Shown: piece after piece, positions 2,752 through 20,783 of the stretch
Layout of the letters: each line of letters starts with the position of its first letter
How positions within the stretch are numbered: position 1 is the stretch's first letter
IMG/VR virus record: IMGVR_UViG_3300033064_003586
Coordinates: 1-26,755 of that record
Source of the DNA: a virus
Length of the DNA: 26,755 bases
Reading direction: 5' to 3' (one strand)
Position numbers and translations under genes: made by a program
The notes under the pieces: generated by a model
Told to the model about the DNA's origin: nothing
The model's input: only the letters and a program-made list of their open reading frames with translations
Database searches by the model: none

Positions 2752-2964
2752 TCACTCCCTGAATCCTAAACATTTTCCGTCAGCGTCAAGGTGGACGTCC
2801 ATAACTTTGCAACGATGGTTACCCTTGCTATTCCATTTACAATCCTCGTTGTCGCATGATAAGGTCACCTTGCCTATGAGACAATTACCTTCGTCCCAAT
2901 GAGGACAATGTTTAGCCATGCAGATATATCTACCGTCTTTCTTTTCCCAAGTGCATCCTGTCAT
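2752..2964 (-). CDS. small Cys-rich (DUF1540-like) protein
   Basis: This 70-residue protein has eight cysteines (C4, C15, C20, C28, C37, C42, C52, C65). The second half, C-x4-C-x9-C-x12-C followed by LGF, resembles the DUF1540 Cys-rich pattern, and the first half looks like a partial second copy. It probably binds a metal; the role is unknown. Its ATG overlaps the stop of the giant gene by one base (TAATG). AGGAG within the last codons of that gene serves as ribosome site, so its translation is likely coupled to the 9-kb cistron and it may work with the giant protein. Confidence 0.62.
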   Translation of the reverse strand: MTGCTWEKKDGRYICMAKHCPHWDEGNCLIGKVTLSCDNEDCKWNSKGNHRCKVMDVHLDADGKCLGFRE

Positions 2965-5900
2965 TAGATACTCCTGGACTTATCTTTCCGGAGAGTCACT
3001 ACAAAGATGTGGTGTTTCTCTCCATACTCGTCGTATTTATCTTCCTGCTCTTTATAGGAATCGAGGACGTTAAAACCAAAGCCTTTCAAGTCCATAAGAT
3101 ACTCTTTGTAATCCACCTCGCCCTCTTTGGGCTTGCCGCTCTTGAACTGAGTATCGCCGTAGATGTAGATGAAGGCCAAGCCCCCAGGCCTCAATACACG
3201 ATACAACTCAGGGATTGACTTCTTCAGCTCGGTAGAGTGTAAGACGGATAAAGTAAATACCGAATCGAAGCTATTGTCTCCAAAAGGTAGCTTCTCAGCA
3301 TTGGCTACCCTGAAGTCGACGCTTGCCTTCTTTTTATCAGCATTACCCTTAGCCAACTTGATTGCTTTTGGCGTTATGTCTATTGAGGTAACATTAAGCC
3401 CAGCCTTAGAAAAGTGGATTGCGTCTCGACCGTTTCCAGAGCCGATTTCTAAAATATCCTTCGCCTTGTTTTTCTTTACCTTCTTTACAAATTCAGTTGC
3501 AAAGACAGATGGCTTCATGTCTTCAGCCCAATGCGGAGTCTCTTCGGCATATTCCTCTTTCCAGTCTGCGGCTGTCATACCAGAGTCAGCAGACTCTTCA
3601 TCCTGCCCAAAGTCACCCTGCCCACCTCGTAGTGCTTTCAAGCGCTCTTCAATCTCGCCGCCTCTTTCGGCCCACTCTTCAATGAACCGCTCATAGGCAG
3701 TCAATTCCTCACGCCTGTCCTTTTCACTAACCGGCGTGTAATCGAACTTCAGTACCAGCCAGTCATCAAGCGCCTGATTATCCCTTCTGAATTCGTCCTT
3801 TGCCGCCAGATGAGGCTTGGTCAGGTATGTCAGATATAGGTTGAAGACTCCCCGGCTGGGAACCTTAGTGAAGTCCTTTTTCTCATTGCCCATCAAGTCC
3901 CGGTAGACTTCCCGGTAGAACTCGATGTTCTCCATCAGGAACCAATCGTCGGTATACCACAGGTCAGTACCGGTATTTAGCTTCCAGTGCTCCGGCTTGC
4001 CCTCACCGATGATGGTGTAGTAGCCAACATAAGTATCTACATATTGCTCCGGAACGAACTTTCCGTAGGCATTTCTCCGTAGTTCAGCCAAGCCGAACTC
4101 GGTATATTTTCCCTTATCATCAAACCGCATGGCGTTTCGCTCTTCTGCTCTTTCGTCCTCATCATCGATGTAGAATTCAGACTCATTATCTGCCAGCCCC
4201 TCGAGTCTGATAAAGTCCTTCTTCCGCTCGTCGTAGATATCGTCGTATTCAATCGCCGGCACATCTTCCGGCTTGGTGATATCGATACCTCCGACGTCGT
4301 GCATGGCTGTAGCGAACTCCGGATTATCAACCAGGAAGCGCTCCTGGCGCTGTCCCTTAACATCGAGTTCGTGATAGGCAACGAAGTTCTCAATCTGAGA
4401 TTCAGGGAAGGTTCCGATTCGTCCTTCCCCACTTAGGATATCTCTTACAAGGTGCTTCTCTTCATTCCTTTGCTGTAAATAAGCAATGAGCGGAAAATCC
4501 GATTCAGGTTTTCCTATTTCCTTAGCATAGTCTATATGTTCTTGAACAGTCTTCTCATCAGATGCTAGGTGTTCATCGAGCATCTTGATTCCATCATCTA
4601 TAATTTTCTGGATGGGGCTGGGTTTCCCTATTTCATTAATGGCTTTCAAAACTCGTTCATAATCCTTAGCCCAGTCTGTTTGAAGCTGTATGTGGCTTGG
4701 TAGTGCCTCTGGACTTGGCATAACCTGCATTGTTTCATAATCTTTACCACCAGGCAATAGGTCAAGATGCTCTTGCTGAGCAAGTTTCATAAGTTCAGTA
4801 GCTCTACTTGTATCAACCCCCTCAAATCCTGCTTGATAAGCCTCACGCCTGCGCCTGTCCTTGCGGTACTCCGTATTGGCAGCCAAGTAAGCGGCCCGGG
4901 CTTCCGAGTCATCACCATCGATGGCGTTATACTCATTGTCCTGAGCACGCCACTTGACAGTTATCCGGAGTGCTGGAACATTCCATGTACTTCCGTTATC
5001 GGTTAGCAGCCCGGCATCATAGGCTTTATCGAATACGCCCTGATGATCCACCAGCCATATCTTTGCCTCAGCGCTTTGCGGTTCAACAGTGCCGAGCAAG
5101 CGCCCTCTCTCAGCCCACAGCCCTGCTTCCTTATCGGTAAAGCCGACCTTATATGCCTCGACTTTCTCAAGGTCATCGAAGTATACGCTATCAGGAAACT
5201 GTTTGAAGAAAGCCGCCCGGCGCTTGTCCACATCATCGATGTAAGTCTCCGGGGAATTCTTGTCTCCGAGCGTATTCCAGTGGGCGTCCTCTTTGACGTT
5301 CTTGGCCTGCAGCCGTATCGCCGGCTCCACCCACTCGTCATAATGGCCACGCTCTTCCTCAGTGGCCAGGCCGCCCCTGTCCTGCAGGAGACTTTCATCG
5401 AGTGCCTTTCTGTAGGCATCTGGGCTATCAAATGCCCATTGCTTTACCAATGGACTGCCGCCGCTATAATCGCTTACCAGACGCCCACGCTCTACCCAAG
5501 CCTCTACCTCGACGTCATCGAAGCCGTTGGATATCGCCTGAGTCCGCATATCGTCATCGAAGTATTCACTGTCAGGGAACTCTTCGTAGAACTTGGCAAT
5601 CCTTTCTTTCTCATCTTCGATATAGTCATCGCCATCCTTATCTGTTAAGGTGGCCATGTACTCTCTTTCAGGCCGGTTCTTTGCCTTGAGGATGTAATAC
5701 TGCTCCGGCTGTGCTGGCGCATTGAGGGCGTCAGCACCGGTCTTCAGCGCCTCATCCTGATACCATTTAAGCAGCTCTGGGTCCCGGGCAAGCACTACCA
5801 TTGACTCAGCACTCATGGCGCCGTACTCCTGGACCGCCGCTTCCCTTTCAAAGTAGTTCTCAGCAGACGCTTCAGGTGGCATGGTCATTTCGGGCATGCC

Positions 5901-8900
5901 GTTCTCCGGGATATCCAGTGAATTAACCAAGCTCTTGAACTCATCGTAAGCGGCTTTGGTATATATCTTCTCCTGGCCCCATACCGCTAGCTCTGCGTTC
6001 TCTTTGGGGTGAGTATAAAGGTAATTAGTCCTGGGATTGACACCGATATCCGCATTATGTTTCTCGAGGTACTCGGCCTGCAAATCCTCATCAGTAATAG
6101 AATGATACTCCATGAGCATAGAGAACTGTCTCTGCGAGATATTGCCTAGATATGCTTGATTATGCCGCTCGTCGGCGTCCCATTCCTTCAGCTTCTCTTC
6201 GTCACCAGTGGCTACAAGCACTTCCCTTTCACGCCACATCTGATAATACTGAGCGAAGGTAGTACCCTTAGCCGCATCAGCGTTAATCTTAAAGAGTTTC
6301 TCATTCGGCATTACGCTCATGCTCTCTTTAATTGCCTGGGCCTCCGTGATTGCCCGGACATATTCCGGGAAGCCCTTTGTTTCCGTCAGTGTCGCCGGAT
6401 CGACGCCCTTGAACTGTGACGCCGTATCAGCCCAAAAGTCCTCGGTAGTATAGTACGGTGTGCGTACTCCGTAAGGCAGACTGTCAGTGTACTTCGGCAG
6501 CCCCAGCTTCGCAACATTCTCAACCCAATCACCGGTATAAGTCTGAACGCTGGCGCCAACGATGGCTGGGACAGCTACCGCCAAAGCGGTCACCGGATCT
6601 TCCTGATAAGCCTCGTAGATATCCCATACGGCAAAGGGGGCTACCCTTTCCGCCCACTGTTTCTTGTCCTTGATATCAACCTCTTCACCCACAAAGTTCT
6701 TACCCTTCCAGAAATCGAGTAAAAGACTGGCAAGCGGTGAAGCCTTGCCCCTGAGTAGGTTCTGAACGAGGTCGAGGGGATCGGGTTTATACTCGGCGCC
6801 AGTCACACTTGAGACGCCTGTGCCGGTAATAGCCCGGGTAAAGAAGACGAGGAACTGACGGAAGCCACCCCAGGGGTCTACTCGGGTATTGCCAATCCTG
6901 ATTGACATATACTCAGCGCTTCTCGGATCTCTCTCGACTTCCCACCAGCCAGCCATTGCGCCGAGTAGAACAATGCCGCCAAACGTGCTGACAAATAGAG
7001 AGGCGTTCTTCCATGCCTCAGCTCGTACCCGGGGATTGGCGTTTATCAGATCCTTTACGGACAGTATCCTACCTATCGCCATCCTCGGAGCAAAGAGCAA
7101 GCCGCTCAATATAGAGGCTGCCCCTGCGAACTGGCCGAGCGAACCTCTGGCAGTAAAGTTAGCGAGGCTCTTAGAGAAGTCAATCATTTCTTTCTGGATA
7201 TCAAAAGCCTGGCCGGGCTTCAGTTTCTTTTTACCGGAGGCGTACTGCTCATTCAGTTTGAGCATAGCCTTATAGTAGCTCTTGAATATCCGCCAGTTAT
7301 GCTCATTTGTGCCAGTCTCGAAAGCCCGGGCAGATATCTTGACATGGGGTAACCACGCTGTAAATCTCGGGAGTAGTCTACCAACACCCTTTGTATAACC
7401 GTATTCCTCAGTACCTCGATAGTGTGCGGTTCCCTTTGGCAGAATGAGCGGCCGGAGAAAGTCGCCGCCGACATCTGCCGCTACATCATAGATCTGGTAG
7501 AGGGGATCTTGAGTAATTCTTGACCATGAAGCCTCGGCTGACTTTTGACTCCATATAGCTTTCCACGCCTCGACGTTGGCCAGGGCAAATGATATCGGAT
7601 GGCTGGCAATGAGCGGCGCCTGCTGTCTCCAAAATGAGAAGTCGAAGGACGCCTTGTTAGCCCTGAGGAAGTTACCGATATCTATGGGCGCCATCCCCAG
7701 CTCTTTAAGTGCCCTAACAATACTATCCGTAGCAGGAGCTGGCCAGAGTGTGAGTTCCTTTATCGCCTTATCAATCGGGGCCTCATACTTTGCCACTGGT
7801 GGCAGGGGATACGACCTGTCCCGAGCCTCCATGCGCTTGAGCTGGAACTGGTCGAAGGTTATCCTGCCATCAGCTAATTGAGTCTCTAGTTCTAGTTCTG
7901 CTATGGCAAATGCCAGATCGCCCTCAGTCCTCAAATCCTGGACAACAGGTATCTCAAACGCCGGCTCCATCATGGTCTTATAGCCGTAAGGTATGCCGGA
8001 CAGTTTATTCAGGTACTCCGCCATATCCGCATCAATCGGAATATGCTCCCGGCCTATCTCATGGAATACGCCCTCAACAACGTCCTTTAAGGTTGTACCC
8101 TCTTCTGATATCGTGTCCAGGGCTTTCATAACCTGTGGCTGGTCACCGAAAACGTAGTTCAACCGATCCCAGGCGGAACCGCCTTCAGGGAAGAGAAGGC
8201 TACCGGGGCCTTTCTTACGAGGTATAGCCCGAGCATGGCGTATCAGCCTGCCGTACTCGTCTTTCTGAGGAAGAGCGTTAAGTAGAGCGGTATAGGTGGC
8301 CGCCATTTCAAAGGGATAGTCCCTCATCTTTGCGGCTACCTGTTCAAACAGTACGCTCCGCATCTGTTCTGACAGGTCATCGAGGTATTCGGTTTCAACC
8401 ACCGGTAACTTGCCGGAGAGGGTTTCTTTAATTGCGAGTTTAATGGCCTCTTCAGCCGGCAGACCGTCCTTGATCATAAGTTCTTGGGCCCGGGCTTTCA
8501 GGATCTCGGCCTGGTCTGTCTTCGTCTCACGCCTTAACTCTTCCGTCAAAGCCCAGGCATCGATCGCCTTGCGGTCCATAACATATTTGCCGAACAGGTC
8601 AAGAGTTCTGGTACGCTGGGCTGGCGTCAGCATACGCTCACCAGAAGGAGATAACTCTACGTCTCTTGGTCTTGTCTCAGGAACGGACTTGGATATCTCG
8701 GGTTGCTGGCGGCTTACAGCAGCTTTAGCCACCTTTACTCTCCGCCTTGCCTCACGAACCTGTATAACCCGATTGGCAATCTCATCAGCGCTGATGCCGA
8801 ACTGGACTGTCAAATTATCAAGCGCCTCGTCCCGGGGAACTTTGTTATATGTTCTCTTCCCTTTCTCGGAATACTTGGCAAACGAATGTTTCGGCCATAA

Positions 8901-11900
8901 TTGCTCGGCCTGCTTAACGGTGAAGTATTCAGGGAATGTCTGCTCCCTCAGGGAGATAAAGAATTCAAGGCCAACCTTTCTTCCTCTGCCGATTGTAATC
9001 CTTTTGCCGGCTACTGGATCAGTCTCTAAGAAAGTTCTCAGCCCTTCAAGTTCGGCCTCCGCCTCATAAGCCGCAGCCGCTTGCTGGTACTGGTCGAGCT
9101 TGAGCTGGTCTTCCATCGATATCTGGACAATCTCACCCCGGCCCCTGGGCCGGACTACCCTCTCTTCGCCAAACATTCCAGGTTGAACTCCGGCTTCAGG
9201 CATACCAGCTTCAGGGGTGGGGATAGGAAACTTCTTATCATATTCCTCTGAAAGAAATTTCCTTTGTAACTTTTCGTTAAGAGAAAATCCGAGTTCCTTA
9301 GCCTCTTGTTTGTATTTCTTCAAACCCTCTCGGATGTATTCTTCTTTTGTAACCTCTGGGGTAACAGGTACAAGTGGTTCACCCCTCAACTCAGCTATCT
9401 TCAGGTCGAGCTGATGGATGGCCTTATCAACAAAGCCTTCGCCGTATTGCCTCTCGAGAGTTACCTGTGTCTCTTTCTTGGTGGCGAGGTCACTGCGGAG
9501 TTTCTCTACTTGCTCAAGGCTCATCCCGGTAGTGCGCTTGGTGACGTACTGTTCAGCTTGCCCGGGCTCGGTGGTTGGAAGTGCTGTTTCTAATTCATAA
9601 CCTCTGGCAGCTAACTCCTTTGCTGATAACTGAGTGGTAGTTCCTTTTTCATCTACAAGCAGCCATTTACCCTTTTCAGTAATGCCAGCTTGAGGTCGCC
9701 ATTCTTGAGCAGTAAGTCTCTTGCCTTCGGGATTTATTAAAATATCACCAACTTTAACTTCAGGCTTCTCTTCAGGAACGCCGATTGCCCCTCTTTCGCC
9801 TTTGACTACTTCTTTCAGCCGCTCGTACCAGTTACCTTTCTCATCCTTTGCCCAGCCCCGGGCTTTCTTGGCGGCCTCCGTCATGCCCTTCTGTTCTAGC
9901 GGACTGACCATACGGACCGATACGCCGGCGGCGAAGCCGGACGGCAGCAGGGTAGCCACCGCCGTCTTGACCGCTATATCGGGTAAGTTCTCTAAGACGC
10001 TCCTATTCTCATCGTAGAAGCCTACAGCCACGTTGCTGACGACTTCCTGTGCTACCTCAGTGGATATCTCGGCAAACTGGTTAATGGTGAAGTTCCGGCC
10101 AAACTTGAGTATCGTGTCGGCCAGTGACTTCTTGCTTAACTCTGAGATAGCCCTTCGCTTGAACTGCCCGAACAGCAATGGACTCACCTGTTTCAGTAGC
10201 GGTATCCGGCCGGCGCTTTCAAGCAAGCCAATGATGGCCCCGGATATCGCCGCCAGCTCAGCCGCTTTATCTTCTGGAGCCCCGGCGTTTATCAGGTCTT
10301 CAAAGACTGCCTGGCCCTCGACCGGTGCCATAATAGCCGCTGTCCCCAATACAGCCAGCGGGCCCACGCCGCCTGTAACCAGCGCCATAGCGGTAGCCGT
10401 CACGATAAATGGAGTGATGCTGGCCAGTTCATAGGCATAATAGCGAAAGTCTTTGAGCAACTCCGGATGCTGGAAAGCGCCCTCCTGATATGCAATAGGG
10501 GCTACCAGTTCCGGGTTCTTGGCTACCCAATCCTGATATTCCTCTTTGTTCTCGTTATAAAGATACCTGAAGTTTTCCCTCATCCGGCGGTTAGTCTCGT
10601 TCATGGATTTAACCATGTCGTCGCTAAACAGCTTCTCGATATCCAAGCGGTCATCCTTCTTGGCCGGTATCTCAGAGAAGATAATCTCCGGCATAACGGA
10701 GAGCATGAAGTTCTCGCCTTGCTCCCACATTGTCCGGGACTGGAAAGCAGTCCAATCCCAAAAGTCCTTAAATATGTTCTGTGGGGGATCTTTAGTGAAG
10801 AGCTTGGTAGCCGGATTATAAGCGCCGACATAATCGCCCCGGGCATTATAGGCCGCCTGATTCTCAATATCGATGGTGAGTGATTGCCGGATTCCATCAA
10901 CCTCGACAACCATTCTCTGCCGGCTGAATATCTCATTTATCTCCGCCGGCTCGTAGCCCATGAATCCGAGTAGCTGTCTCTTCTCAAAAGTGCCGCCGCC
11001 GGTCTGCATTGTCTCCATAAATAGAGCGAAGTCACTCTCGATTAGCCCACCTAGTTCCTCGGAATTAGCAAAGTCCGGGAAGACTTCGTTTATCAGTGTA
11101 TTAACGTGGGCCTCTTGATTGACAAAATCCATTGTCTGAAGGATATACTCTTCAGTAACACCAAACAGCCGGAGAATATCCTGGGCCTCTTGCGGATCCA
11201 CCAGGCTATTGAGTTCCTCGATAAAGCCCTGGTAATCAGTGGCCAGTCTATTCTGCAGTTGGTCGACAATCACCCCGGGTAATTCCTCAGGGGAATATCC
11301 GTAGCTATTGGCCGGATCGAACATGAAGCCGAAGGCGCTACGAAGGTGTCTCACCAGCTCATCATCCGGCCTGGCTTTTTCTGCCTCGGGCCTCGGCATC
11401 AGGTAGAAAGCCGGCTCACCCCGGGCCATCGGTGTCATCAAGAGGACGCTGCCCTCTGGCACGTCGTAGCCCAGGAACTTAGCCTGCTCTGCAGTAAGAT
11501 ACTGCTCGTAAGGTATGGCCCATCGGACAGTCCTTTTTTCAGGCGGCAACGCCAGCTCAGCCAACTGCTTAGCCCCGACAAACCTGTTAGACGGTACGCC
11601 GTAGAGTTCGGCCAGGGCCTTCATATCGGCGGTAGTTACCTCAGGGGTTACCGTCTCGAGCTGAACAAGGTCTAGCTGGTCGTAGGTAGGTCGCTGTGCC
11701 TGGAACTCTTCTGCAGCCTTCTTCCATTCCTCGAAATAAGGCTGCATTTCGTCATCAGCCGGAGCGTCCGGGAACTTGCCGGTTACAGACAGGAATCCCG
11801 ACCAGTCCGTCCATGCCTTGTCGAACTTGTATATATCCTTTGAGGATATCAGGGGGCTAACCGGCTCAGCCTCTTCGACCTCTTCATCTTCATCGAGGTC

Positions 11901-11999
11901 CGGAGTGGGTGGCTGATAGTTACCAGCAATCCACTCACGTTCACCGGTGGCCGGGTTTACTCGCCAATATCCTGTTTTTATGGTGGTGTCATTTACCAT
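2964..11999 (-). CDS. giant polyvalent (probable virion ejection) protein with C-terminal SAM methyltransferase
   Basis: One uninterrupted frame of about 3,011 residues lies between portal and scaffold, the usual place of large proteins packaged and injected with phage DNA. The N terminus is acidic (DLDEDEEVEEAE, about 35-46). Hydrophobic, membrane-capable segments lie at about 527-565 (ITPFIVTATAMALVTGG) and 580-600. A small beta-type segment is near 748-800 and charged helical stretches run to about 1100. A conserved-looking core at about 1450-1715 contains SFDFSFWRQQAPLIASHP, FTARGSLG, FAPR, a hydrophobic helix near 1670-1690 and DPRSAEYMSIRIGNTRVDPW; I recall such motifs from large polyvalent proteins (LPD38-like). 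Residues 2100-2450 hold tandem repeats. Residues about 2815-3000 form a full class I methyltransferase: EIGSGNGRDA (motif I), acidic SIDI, NAEKLPF, FDSVFTLSVLH and LRPGG. The ATG at 11999 has AGGTG upstream; a TTG at 12002 is the alternative. The methyltransferase substrate is unknown. Confidence 0.85.
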   Translation of the reverse strand: MVNDTTIKTGYWRVNPATGEREWIAGNYQPPTPDLDEDEEVEEAEPVSPLISSKDIYKFDKAWTDWSGFLSVTGKFPDAPADDEMQPYFEEWKKAAEEFQAQRPTYDQLDLVQLETVTPEVTTADMKALAELYGVPSNRFVGAKQLAELALPPEKRTVRWAIPYEQYLTAEQAKFLGYDVPEGSVLLMTPMARGEPAFYLMPRPEAEKARPDDELVRHLRSAFGFMFDPANSYGYSPEELPGVIVDQLQNRLATDYQGFIEELNSLVDPQEAQDILRLFGVTEEYILQTMDFVNQEAHVNTLINEVFPDFANSEELGGLIESDFALFMETMQTGGGTFEKRQLLGFMGYEPAEINEIFSRQRMVVEVDGIRQSLTIDIENQAAYNARGDYVGAYNPATKLFTKDPPQNIFKDFWDWTAFQSRTMWEQGENFMLSVMPEIIFSEIPAKKDDRLDIEKLFSDDMVKSMNETNRRMRENFRYLYNENKEEYQDWVAKNPELVAPIAYQEGAFQHPELLKDFRYYAYELASITPFIVTATAMALVTGGVGPLAVLGTAAIMAPVEGQAVFEDLINAGAPEDKAAELAAISGAIIGLLESAGRIPLLKQVSPLLFGQFKRRAISELSKKSLADTILKFGRNFTINQFAEISTEVAQEVVSNVAVGFYDENRSVLENLPDIAVKTAVATLLPSGFAAGVSVRMVSPLEQKGMTEAAKKARGWAKDEKGNWYERLKEVVKGERGAIGVPEEKPEVKVGDILINPEGKRLTAQEWRPQAGITEKGKWLLVDEKGTTTQLSAKELAARGYELETALPTTEPGQAEQYVTKRTTGMSLEQVEKLRSDLATKKETQVTLERQYGEGFVDKAIHQLDLKIAELRGEPLVPVTPEVTKEEYIREGLKKYKQEAKELGFSLNEKLQRKFLSEEYDKKFPIPTPEAGMPEAGVQPGMFGEERVVRPRGRGEIVQISMEDQLKLDQYQQAAAAYEAEAELEGLRTFLETDPVAGKRITIGRGRKVGLEFFISLREQTFPEYFTVKQAEQLWPKHSFAKYSEKGKRTYNKVPRDEALDNLTVQFGISADEIANRVIQVREARRRVKVAKAAVSRQQPEISKSVPETRPRDVELSPSGERMLTPAQRTRTLDLFGKYVMDRKAIDAWALTEELRRETKTDQAEILKARAQELMIKDGLPAEEAIKLAIKETLSGKLPVVETEYLDDLSEQMRSVLFEQVAAKMRDYPFEMAATYTALLNALPQKDEYGRLIRHARAIPRKKGPGSLLFPEGGSAWDRLNYVFGDQPQVMKALDTISEEGTTLKDVVEGVFHEIGREHIPIDADMAEYLNKLSGIPYGYKTMMEPAFEIPVVQDLRTEGDLAFAIAELELETQLADGRITFDQFQLKRMEARDRSYPLPPVAKYEAPIDKAIKELTLWPAPATDSIVRALKELGMAPIDIGNFLRANKASFDFSFWRQQAPLIASHPISFALANVEAWKAIWSQKSAEASWSRITQDPLYQIYDVAADVGGDFLRPLILPKGTAHYRGTEEYGYTKGVGRLLPRFTAWLPHVKISARAFETGTNEHNWRIFKSYYKAMLKLNEQYASGKKKLKPGQAFDIQKEMIDFSKSLANFTARGSLGQFAGAASILSGLLFAPRMAIGRILSVKDLINANPRVRAEAWKNASLFVSTFGGIVLLGAMAGWWEVERDPRSAEYMSIRIGNTRVDPWGGFRQFLVFFTRAITGTGVSSVTGAEYKPDPLDLVQNLLRGKASPLASLLLDFWKGKNFVGEEVDIKDKKQWAERVAPFAVWDIYEAYQEDPVTALAVAVPAIVGASVQTYTGDWVENVAKLGLPKYTDSLPYGVRTPYYTTEDFWADTASQFKGVDPATLTETKGFPEYVRAITEAQAIKESMSVMPNEKLFKINADAAKGTTFAQYYQMWREREVLVATGDEEKLKEWDADERHNQAYLGNISQRQFSMLMEYHSITDEDLQAEYLEKHNADIGVNPRTNYLYTHPKENAELAVWGQEKIYTKAAYDEFKSLVNSLDIPENGMPEMTMPPEASAENYFEREAAVQEYGAMSAESMVVLARDPELLKWYQDEALKTGADALNAPAQPEQYYILKAKNRPEREYMATLTDKDGDDYIEDEKERIAKFYEEFPDSEYFDDDMRTQAISNGFDDVEVEAWVERGRLVSDYSGGSPLVKQWAFDSPDAYRKALDESLLQDRGGLATEEERGHYDEWVEPAIRLQAKNVKEDAHWNTLGDKNSPETYIDDVDKRRAAFFKQFPDSVYFDDLEKVEAYKVGFTDKEAGLWAERGRLLGTVEPQSAEAKIWLVDHQGVFDKAYDAGLLTDNGSTWNVPALRITVKWRAQDNEYNAIDGDDSEARAAYLAANTEYRKDRRRREAYQAGFEGVDTSRATELMKLAQQEHLDLLPGGKDYETMQVMPSPEALPSHIQLQTDWAKDYERVLKAINEIGKPSPIQKIIDDGIKMLDEHLASDEKTVQEHIDYAKEIGKPESDFPLIAYLQQRNEEKHLVRDILSGEGRIGTFPESQIENFVAYHELDVKGQRQERFLVDNPEFATAMHDVGGIDITKPEDVPAIEYDDIYDERKKDFIRLEGLADNESEFYIDDEDERAEERNAMRFDDKGKYTEFGLAELRRNAYGKFVPEQYVDTYVGYYTIIGEGKPEHWKLNTGTDLWYTDDWFLMENIEFYREVYRDLMGNEKKDFTKVPSRGVFNLYLTYLTKPHLAAKDEFRRDNQALDDWLVLKFDYTPVSEKDRREELTAYERFIEEWAERGGEIEERLKALRGGQGDFGQDEESADSGMTAADWKEEYAEETPHWAEDMKPSVFATEFVKKVKKNKAKDILEIGSGNGRDAIHFSKAGLNVTSIDITPKAIKLAKGNADKKKASVDFRVANAEKLPFGDNSFDSVFTLSVLHSTELKKSIPELYRVLRPGGLAFIYIYGDTQFKSGKPKEGEVDYKEYLMDLKGFGFNVLDSYKEQEDKYDEYGEKHHIFVVTLRKDKSRSI
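4700..5690 (-). repeat. tandem protein repeats of about 110-130 residues inside the giant gene
   Basis: Three consecutive copies are anchored near residues 2125, 2254 and 2361. The shared pattern of copies 1 and 2 is YI-D, then FPDSxYFDD, GFxDxE, W-ERGRL, K-W, KAxDxxLLxD. Copy 3 keeps the R-rich helix and EAYQAGFEG and then decays. A further degenerate copy (YIDDEDERAEER) lies near residue 2611, and an upstream half-copy may exist before 2100. The similarity is at protein level; I did not find matching DNA-level repeats, so the duplications look old. Confidence 0.7.
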
Positions 12000-12006
12000 C
12001 AATCAC

Positions 12007-13959: not shown

Positions 13960-15399
13960 TTAATACGGTATTGCATCGCCGCCGCCGCCGCCCTTCTTTT
14001 TGCAGCGTGTCATCATAACAGCGTCGCCCACGTCCGGAGATTTGCTTCCCCTGGCTTTGGCGTCCTCTTTACTTTCAATCTGCAGCAAGCCTCGAGGCGT
14101 ATAAGTGTACCGGATATCCGATAGCTGAGCCTTCAGCTTATCGTTATCGGGAAGGTCCAGTTCCCCATCTGCTAATTCCCTTGAGAATTCCCACCACCCC
14201 TCAGCTCTGCGGTTGAGGTATCGTTCAGTATCGAGTGCCGGCTTACCGGAATCATACTCGATAATTTTGTACTCATTGCCGATCTCTCGCTTGAGATTAT
14301 CATATACGCCGGCGCCGAGTCCAACCACATCGATATAAGTCCTGACCGGTTTGTTTTCCTTTATCAGCCGGGCCGTCCGGCCGGTGGTGTAGCCTGTTTC
14401 CTGATGCCCCCAGGTAATAACGTCGAGGACTTTCTTCCCCTGGCTGATGGCAAAGCAGCACTCGTCGTCGCCGTACCTGGCCACGTCGAGGGCGGCCACC
14501 TTCAGGTGTTTGTCATATTCCTTGCGCTCCAACTCCCGGGACATGGCGAACTCGATATCCGAGAGACGCATGAGATTATTGATCCCGGCCTCTGGGAAGT
14601 CACCGAGGATAAAGACGACGTAGAGGTAAGAGCCCTTGCCCCAATTCTTATAGCGCTCGGCAACTTTGGCCGGGCCCATAAGCTGAGGGTAAGGGAGTTC
14701 CTGCCCCGACCACTTCTTCTGCCAATCGCCGCTTTCGATATCTTCCTGGGTAATACCGAAGCTGGCAAGGTTTGGTGAATCAAACGCCGAGATATGAAAT
14801 TTCTTATAGAGGTCCGAGTTGAAGGTATCCCGGTATGCTCCCACTGACTGAGTAGGGTTCGAGAGCAGGAGCTCATGGGTATTACCGGTAGAGAGTGGAT
14901 TCTCGATGGCGCCGAAGATATCGTTGGTCAGGCCGGCGGCGTCGTCGCCTATCACCAGCACGTTGACATTGTGGTAGCCGAGCATACGTTCCGGCTCGTC
15001 GGTAGCGAAGCCGACGGCAAAGTGGTCTTCAGATATCTCAAGGGCTTTCCGGGTGAGGTTTCCCTCGAGGGGGAATTTTGCCTGTGAGTAAGCGAGCCGT
15101 ATCTCACGCCAGAGGATGTCCTCGACCTGTCTGTTAGTGGGGGCTGTAGTGATGACGGTGGCTGGGTAGAAGTTATAAAGAAAGGCCAGGGCTACACGGG
15201 CGGCGACGAAGCTCTTGCCAGTGGCCTCGCAGCTCCGCACCGTTGTCCTGGGATAGTAGAAAGCGGACTGAGCGATAGCAATCTGCATGGGCCAGAGGTT
15301 ACAGCCGAGCACTTTCTCGATCCACCAGTCCGGGTATATCCGGGCCTTATGCCGTATTTTCTCATTCATTTCGGGCGTCGGGTATAAATTAGTCGCCAT
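13960..15399 (-). CDS. terL: terminase large subunit (packaging ATPase-nuclease)
   Basis: The packaging motor cuts concatemeric DNA and pumps it through the portal. Numbering from the upstream GTG at 15411, the ATPase half has a Walker A-type loop SCEATGKS (59-66), a hydrophobic strand plus acidic pair VLVIGDD (151-157) as Walker B, and a SNPT coupling-type motif near 184-187. The RNase H-like nuclease half has D309 (AALDVARYGDDE), D361 (YIDVVGLGAGVYD) and D460/D463 (SPDVGDAVMM). The C terminus is a Lys/Gly tail. I prefer the ATG at 15399 because it overlaps the stop of the zinc-ribbon frame (TAATG); the GTG at 15411 has no good ribosome site. That leaves 479 residues, normal for the family. 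Confidence 0.92.
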   Translation of the reverse strand: MATNLYPTPEMNEKIRHKARIYPDWWIEKVLGCNLWPMQIAIAQSAFYYPRTTVRSCEATGKSFVAARVALAFLYNFYPATVITTAPTNRQVEDILWREIRLAYSQAKFPLEGNLTRKALEISEDHFAVGFATDEPERMLGYHNVNVLVIGDDAAGLTNDIFGAIENPLSTGNTHELLLSNPTQSVGAYRDTFNSDLYKKFHISAFDSPNLASFGITQEDIESGDWQKKWSGQELPYPQLMGPAKVAERYKNWGKGSYLYVVFILGDFPEAGINNLMRLSDIEFAMSRELERKEYDKHLKVAALDVARYGDDECCFAISQGKKVLDVITWGHQETGYTTGRTARLIKENKPVRTYIDVVGLGAGVYDNLKREIGNEYKIIEYDSGKPALDTERYLNRRAEGWWEFSRELADGELDLPDNDKLKAQLSDIRYTYTPRGLLQIESKEDAKARGSKSPDVGDAVMMTRCKKKGGGGGDAIPY

Positions 15400-15620
15400 T
15401 AAGAATCCCACTTCGGGTGATACCCTGAGTCGTTTGGTGCCGGTTCCGACTTAATCTTTCTCATCACGGAGTTCCAGTCTATCGCATGGGTAAAAACGGA
15501 CATTACTCGGCGTGCCAACTGTCCGCAAACAGGGCAGATGTTATCGATATCCCTGCCGTCAATCGGGCGGCTGGCTTCTGACCTGTGACCATTCTGACAC
15601 TCGTATTAATAGAGAGGCAT
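15399..15620 (-). pseudogene. FmdB-type zinc-ribbon gene interrupted by TAA at codon 5
   Basis: Read from ATG at 15620 the frame is MPLY, TAA (15608..15606), then YECQNGHRSEASRP, DNICPVCG and RRVMSVF, ending in TAA at 15401..15399, which overlaps the terminase ATG. FmdB-family zinc ribbons typically begin MPxYEYxCxxCGH, so the stop stands exactly where Glu (GAA) is expected. Apart from that codon the protein looks complete (73 codons). No start codon lies between the stop and the cysteines. It may be a nonsense mutant, a readthrough gene or a base error. It overlaps the end of the upstream gene by 62 bases. Confidence 0.65.
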
Positions 15621-15921
15621 CGGCAATCTCTTTCTTAGGTGGCTCTATGCGCTCTATTTTCTCGAAAGTTTCCGCTTCCTCATTCTCTTCGTCCGCCTGG
15701 ATGACTCGGATAGTGGACTGGTACATCGGCTCAATCATTGGGAGAAGGTGTCCATCCTCTACTTCAGGTAAGTCCGGGTGTTCAATCAGGAGTTCAATGT
15801 CCTTTGGATTGTAATACTCCGGTCTTTCACTTATCCTGAGAATCTTACCACCCTCGAAGTCCAGTAGTTTTGCGAGATAGTCCCTCGGAACAACAATAAT
15901 AGCTGCATTTTTAGTCACCAT
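15559..15921 (-). CDS. hypothetical acidic protein
   Basis: This 120-residue protein is acidic (DEENEEAETFEKIERIEPP near 76-94) with no membrane segment or recognised domain. Its ATG has a strong AAGGAGG four bases upstream. Its last 20 codons overlap the zinc-ribbon frame, unusually long for this compact operon. Its own original stop may therefore have been lost, or the tail may be dispensable. It precedes the terminase genes on the same strand. Function unknown. Confidence 0.65.
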   Translation of the reverse strand: MVTKNAAIIVVPRDYLAKLLDFEGGKILRISERPEYYNPKDIELLIEHPDLPEVEDGHLLPMIEPMYQSTIRVIQADEENEEAETFEKIERIEPPKKEIADASLLIRVSEWSQVRSQPPD

Positions 15922-16481: not shown

Positions 16482-16907
16482 TCAGAAACCGCTTGATGTC
16501 CTCTTTTTCCAGGCGAATCCGCCGAAAATACGGACGGCAGCCCACATTACGCACCGTTTCCACAGGGCGACGCCGAGGTCGGCCATGCCGTCGTAGAAAA
16601 TCAGGTCCACCACTGACCTTTTGTGCCTGAAACCGGCGATGGCGTCCTTATAAAGAGCGTCGTGGATGACGGCTGCCTTCGTGTATCTGCCGAGTTTCGG
16701 GATAATTCCCCGGGCAAACCGGGGAATCGAGGCGAAGTCGGTGACGAAACCGGGGGCGACGTGGATTTGGATATACTCACGCTTCCACAGGTAAGTGAAT
16801 TCCCGGGCGACCTTGAACGTCTTTCCGTCGGGCATGACCTCAACGACGAGCGGTGTCAAAAAACTGTTCCTTTCCCTCTTTTTCAAAGTCCCTTCGGGCT
16901 TTTTCAT
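16482..16907 (-). CDS. DUF1353 family protein
   Basis: This 141-residue protein has the DUF1353 signature: GFVTDFASIPR (53-63), GRYTKAAVIHDALY (73-86), a Lys/Arg plus acidic helix (KRSVVDLIFYDGM) and a C-terminal AAVRIFGGFAW. The conserved His-Asp in IHD and the TDFASIPR turn suggest a metal- or ligand-binding site, but the family has no settled function that I know of. It is common in phages, often near lysis or tail genes. I chose the ATG at 16907 (AAAGGAG six bases upstream). The longer frame to 16943 begins with TTG and would abut the upstream gene's stop without a clear ribosome site. Confidence 0.82.
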   Translation of the reverse strand: MKKPEGTLKKRERNSFLTPLVVEVMPDGKTFKVAREFTYLWKREYIQIHVAPGFVTDFASIPRFARGIIPKLGRYTKAAVIHDALYKDAIAGFRHKRSVVDLIFYDGMADLGVALWKRCVMWAAVRIFGGFAWKKRTSSGF

Positions 16908-16943
16908 ATACAGCTCCTTTGCGTCGTAGAACGGCGGTTGCAA

Positions 16944-20707: not shown

Positions 20708-20783
20708 TGGGGGATAGACTAGATGGTAGGTCGCTGGCCTTTGGAGTCAGAGCGGGCAGGTTCGAGCCCTGCTCCCCCAGCCA
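20708..20783 (+). tRNA. tRNA-Gln (anticodon UUG), CCA encoded
   Basis: A full 76-base cloverleaf is present. The acceptor TGGGGGA pairs with TCCCCCA and the D-stem GACT pairs with GGTC. The anticodon stem CTGGC/GTCAG holds loop CTTTGGA, giving anticodon TTG. The variable loop has five bases. The T-stem GCAGG/CCTGC holds loop TTCGAGC, followed by discriminator G and CCA. The U1-A72 pair and G73 are glutamine identity features. It reads CAA (and CAG by wobble). It lies inside the early plus-strand gene block, as phage tRNAs often do. Confidence 0.95.

Follow-up and report, generated by a model that had tools for sequence, protein, structure and literature searches.

The question raised by this locus is whether a TAA codon at the fifth position of an otherwise conserved phage zinc-ribbon gene is read through, is decoded as sense, or is the trace of a lesion. 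The gene lies on a 26,755-base IMG/VR virus record, i.e., the whole stretch analysed here and called the window, in which it directly precedes the gene of the terminase large subunit.

The interrupted zinc-ribbon frame

The FmdB-type zinc-ribbon gene (Zn_ribbon_8; 15399..15620, minus strand), recognised by translation, a profile match and alignments with relatives, reads MPLY-TAA-YECQNGHRSEASRPIDGRDIDNICPVCGQLARRVMSVFTHAIDWNSVMRKIKSEPAPNDSGYHPKWDS-TAA from 15620 to 15399, with the motifs MPLY-TAA-YECQNGH…CPVCG…KWDS-TAA in this order. The premature TAA is codon 5 (15606..15608, minus strand; the base that presumably changed is 15608), where the family consensus is Glu and six relatives have GAA, and it is followed by 68 sense codons and then by a TAA that overlaps the terminase ATG. 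The first-pass annotation regarded this frame as a complete family member but for one base, and the profile comparison agrees: read through the TAA, the frame matches PF09723 (Zn_ribbon_8) over positions 1–41 of 41 with 38.4 bits (E 4.4e-11) and a single TAA inside. The curated cut-off of this family is 34.4 bits, and the score without residues 1–5 is 24.7 bits, so that the cut-off is passed only when the TAA is read through. The continuity of the frame across the stop is not due to chance, because six relatives have FmdB proteins whose alignments cross it and span the whole frame, with E values from 9.7e-19 to 4.5e-9.

The window shares with the family (PF09723; phrog_1076, FmdB-like transcriptional regulator) the MPxYxYxC start, the second CxxC knuckle, the hydrophobic/S motif after that knuckle (RRVMS) and the full-length profile match. 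It differs from the family in its TAA at codon 5 and in a first knuckle of the form C-x3-H (CQNGH) rather than C-x2-C, this C-x3-H form being likewise found in one relative (L005, CPQGH). The knuckles of the read-through frame are thus C8-x3-H12 and C29-x2-C32, and C8, C29 and C32 are invariant in an alignment with five relatives. All zinc-binding residues and the C-terminal motif past the stop are intact and no second lesion is present in the 68 codons, which upholds the earlier argument against long decay. A search of the literature for FmdB zinc ribbons in phages returned nothing useful.

Rescue of the zinc ribbon by an internal start was considered and rejected, as no ATG, GTG or TTG lies between the codon-5 stop and C8, and the next standard starts, at codons 35, 40, 52 and 53, are all past C8, C29 and C32. 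As assembled, the FmdB start can thus yield only MPLY. The window gene is therefore a broken family member in the assembled sequence, with no open frame able to express the domain.

Codon 5 in relatives and in the wider family

A terminase 69–90% identical to that of the window is present, complete or nearly so, in nine IMG/VR contigs; a tenth match is partial. In seven of the nine, the terminase is preceded by an FmdB gene at a distance of up to about 1 kb; one of the seven (L003) retains only the 3′ end of FmdB because the contig begins there. Comparison of codon 5 among relatives, proposed in the first-pass annotation, gave a uniform answer: in all six with a readable FmdB start (L002, L004, L005, L006, L008 and L009), codons 4–6 are TAC GAA TAC and the FmdB frame is open, over 77–93 codons. 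In five of them (L002, L004, L005, L008 and L009) FmdB is, as in the window, directly upstream of a 74–90% identical terminase, with the stop and start overlapping or nearly adjacent; they differ from the window in the GAA at codon 5 and in their intact frames. The two remaining relatives (L007 and L010) lack FmdB upstream of the terminase, where they have other sequence, so that within this group FmdB seems to be dispensable. In two relatives tRNA-Met genes lie just upstream of FmdB (L008:4678-4752 and L009:373-444).

The wider family gives the same picture. Codon 5 of 155 distinct viral FmdB starts is GAA in 124, GAG in 20, Asp in 8, and Leu, Asn and TAA in one each, the TAA being that of the window, although the Glu share (144) is inflated by the part of the set that was gathered with patterns requiring Glu; besides the window's TAA, the 155 members are free of internal stops. 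When 2.9 million viral IMG/VR contigs were scanned for this start motif, no match had TAA vs. at least 120 with GAA, and the GAA matches that were read were all open, except for a few reaching the end of the sequence. Internal stops were likewise absent from 140 family matches in 71 bacterial genomes. A second copy of this virus was sought by an FmdB peptide scan of IMG/VR and by an exact match to the DNA surrounding codon 5 in which base 15608 was left as N, both without a match in the records scanned, by an exact 31-mer in genome contigs, which was not found, and by blastn against annotated phages, again without a match; no near-identical second genome was found in the records scanned.

The same base in the overlapping upstream gene

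An ORF of 120 codons (15559..15921, minus strand) precedes FmdB and overlaps its start by 62 bases. Its homologues in L003 (39% identical) and L132 (45% identical) stop just past a PPK motif (VDPPK and VNPPK), ending in RVDPPKIKT-stop and RVNPPKRTPEGGE-stop, respectively. The window ORF reads RIEPPKKEIADASL and then continues for 16 more codons, and these codons, 105–120, are FmdB DNA read out of frame. A G at base 15608 alone puts TGA in place of TTA at codon 105 of the upstream ORF (15607..15609, minus strand), i.e., the same base acts reciprocally on the two frames, and such a G would end the ORF near the ends of its homologues. Read in this way, one G-to-T change would both truncate FmdB and lengthen the upstream gene by 16 codons. 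Since a single substitution accounts for the excess length of the upstream ORF as well as for the stop in FmdB, the G-to-T change, whose direction we infer, is supported independently of the comparison with the FmdB family. The loss of the upstream gene's expected stop through base 15608, as the two reading frames imply it, had escaped the first-pass annotation. The overlap logic may be of some small general use, as a base that makes one stop and removes the expected stop of a neighbour supports an ancestral state without recourse to reads.

The upstream ORF belongs to a small unnamed family (NAAIIV...FEGGKI...EHPDL...PPK) that shifts its place around FmdB (L003 1-353, L132 3001-3249, window 15559-15921): it comes before FmdB in the window, whereas L003 has it between FmdB and the terminase gene. 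The window copy has no match in Pfam or PHROG.

Recoding, readthrough and other explanations

One in-frame TAA within a conserved gene could mean that this phage decodes TAA as sense. However, the terminase genes of the window and of six of six relatives (L002, L003, L004, L006, L007 and L008) terminate with TAA at the homologous aligned position, the window has a TAA stop in its portal-position, major capsid and scaffold-position genes too, and no tRNA with anticodon UUA is present in the window. The terminase stops contradict recoding, which is left with a negligible probability, the smallest of all the readings weighed here, and the earlier view that wholesale recoding is unlikely holds. 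As a caution, when a single phage contig from a metagenome has a stop within a conserved frame, this should not be equated with evidence of recoding.

Functional readthrough, in which some ribosomes would insert an amino acid at UAA, e.g., Gln by a near-cognate tRNA, and the product would perhaps be kept scarce, is suggested by the intact frame and zinc ligands past the stop and by a phage tRNA-Gln near-cognate to UAA (anticodon UUG; 20708-20783, plus strand; Rfam tRNA, 54.7 bits), the only tRNA in the window; readthrough would also maintain the supply of ribosomes to the terminase start. However, the anticodon of this tRNA is an ordinary UUG, and the CAA and CAG codons suffice to account for its presence; a suppressor tRNA was rejected on this anticodon and on the five-pair anticodon stem. 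The tRNA-Gln(UUG) was not found in the sequence examined of the relatives G001–G004 and the loci L006–L010. The stop context, UAA-U, is reported to be the most efficient terminator, i.e., the strongest termination signal, in bacteria (PMC5289835), the 66 nt downstream of the codon-5 stop fold no better than shuffles (z +0.86) and hold no notable hairpin, and neither a relative nor any other viral FmdB was seen with a stop at codon 5. Of the features of programmed readthrough, i.e., a stop conserved in relatives, a weak context and a stimulatory structure, none is found here. Functional readthrough is thus very unlikely, and a low-level regulated form of it, aided by the phage tRNA-Gln(UUG) and yielding the zinc ribbon and the coupled terminase in small amounts, is slightly less probable still.

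Two further readings were weighed. In the first, a +1 frameshift within the 62 bases of overlap would fuse the upstream gene and the zinc ribbon into one product, as the upstream frame runs open past the FmdB stop to 15559 and ribosomes shifting by +1 in this stretch would enter the frame of the zinc ribbon. However, no recognised slippery motif was seen by inspection, the two genes are separate and differently ordered in relatives, the FmdB genes of relatives usually have a strong ribosome-binding site of their own, and the residues of the extension are merely out-of-frame FmdB DNA; we give this fusion the same slim probability as the regulated form of readthrough. Alternatively, the lineage may have lost FmdB and the gene may be an established, decaying pseudogene, in line with the lack of FmdB before the terminase gene in L007 and L010, but the unmutated 68 codons, the full set of zinc ligands and the preserved overlap with the terminase start speak against this. 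An established pseudogene is a shade less probable than the fusion; at most it would be a very young one, merging with the explanation by a lesion.

A probable isolated single-base lesion and its expected consequences for the terminase

The codon-5 TAA is very probably an isolated single-base lesion. The three options offered in the first-pass annotation are thereby narrowed: a nonsense mutation and a sequence error both stand, and readthrough has nothing positive in its favour, given the strong UAA-U, the absence of a notable hairpin and of a suppressor tRNA, and the relatives without such a stop. However, functional readthrough would be expected to leave the same picture past the stop, with intact zinc ligands and an intact C-terminal motif. 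One isolated substitution in an otherwise intact frame is what an ordinary nonsense mutation, or an error of the consensus, would look like in a phage assembled from a metagenome; the window differs in that the base sits in a gene overlap, hitting two stop/sense codons at once. The ancestor would have had an ordinary phage FmdB-type gene with Glu at codon 5 that started within the end of the upstream gene, and a G-to-T change at 15608 of the minus strand would have turned FmdB codon 5 into TAA and the upstream TGA into TTA, adding 16 residues to the upstream protein.

The terminase large subunit (13960..15399, minus strand; phrog_2, E 1.3e-23) has a start that overlaps the FmdB stop as TAATG (15397..15401, minus strand), as noted previously and as seen in the sequence and in the junctions of relatives. 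Whichever gene precedes the terminase, its stop overlaps the terminase start or is at most 12 bases away from it, in the window and in nine of nine relatives. The preceding gene varies among L002–L010, being FmdB, a member of the small PPK family, a different ORF in L006, or others. Predicted ribosome-binding-site pairing is usually weak at the terminase starts of the window and the nine relatives. In the window, the predicted SD pairing is −2.9 kcal/mol at the FmdB start, −4.8 kcal/mol at the terminase and −12.2 kcal/mol at the upstream ORF; at the FmdB starts of relatives it is −6.4 to −11.6 kcal/mol. A phage with Methanosarcinales as the recorded host (vir525) has a terminase 38% identical to that of the window.

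Originally, ribosomes finishing the upstream gene would have moved on to FmdB and then to the terminase. With T at 15608, those in the upstream frame would stop at 15559 and those in the FmdB frame at 15606, so that neither would reach the terminase start, and ribosomes leaving the upstream gene would now halt about 160 bases short of it. The stop-start coupling to the terminase is thus probably broken and terminase translation reduced, a consequence of the stop that the first-pass annotation had not considered. Restarts at codon 35, 40, 52 or 53 could partly restore the flow, with a product that lacks the zinc ribbon. Since a cost to packaging is expected, the mutation would be either very recent or an error. 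In our judgement, rather than by computation, a real mutation that arose recently in the sampled phage is slightly favoured, and a consensus or assembly error, weighed in the same way, is a serious though lesser possibility. Among the window genes matched by relatives, only FmdB has an in-frame stop or frame break, the other stops in the table of matches being judged antisense or shifted shadow ORFs and set aside; as no other gene matched by relatives is broken, the contig is not generally error-ridden. If real, the lesion would be a natural test of the dependence of the terminase on translation of the FmdB frame.

Other features of the window

Downstream of the portal-position gene, a single ORF of 3012 codons occupies 2964-12002 (minus strand); its C-terminus resembles a SAM-dependent methyltransferase (DILEIGSGNGRDAIHFSKAGLNVTSID, recognised by eye), and pieces homologous to it occur in G001, G002 and G004. 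The region 16482-16943 (minus strand) strongly matches phrog_1158 (tail assembly chaperone, E 2.8e-32); a phrog_1158 match sits upstream of the terminase in most relatives, and the annotation as a tail assembly chaperone may be wrong.
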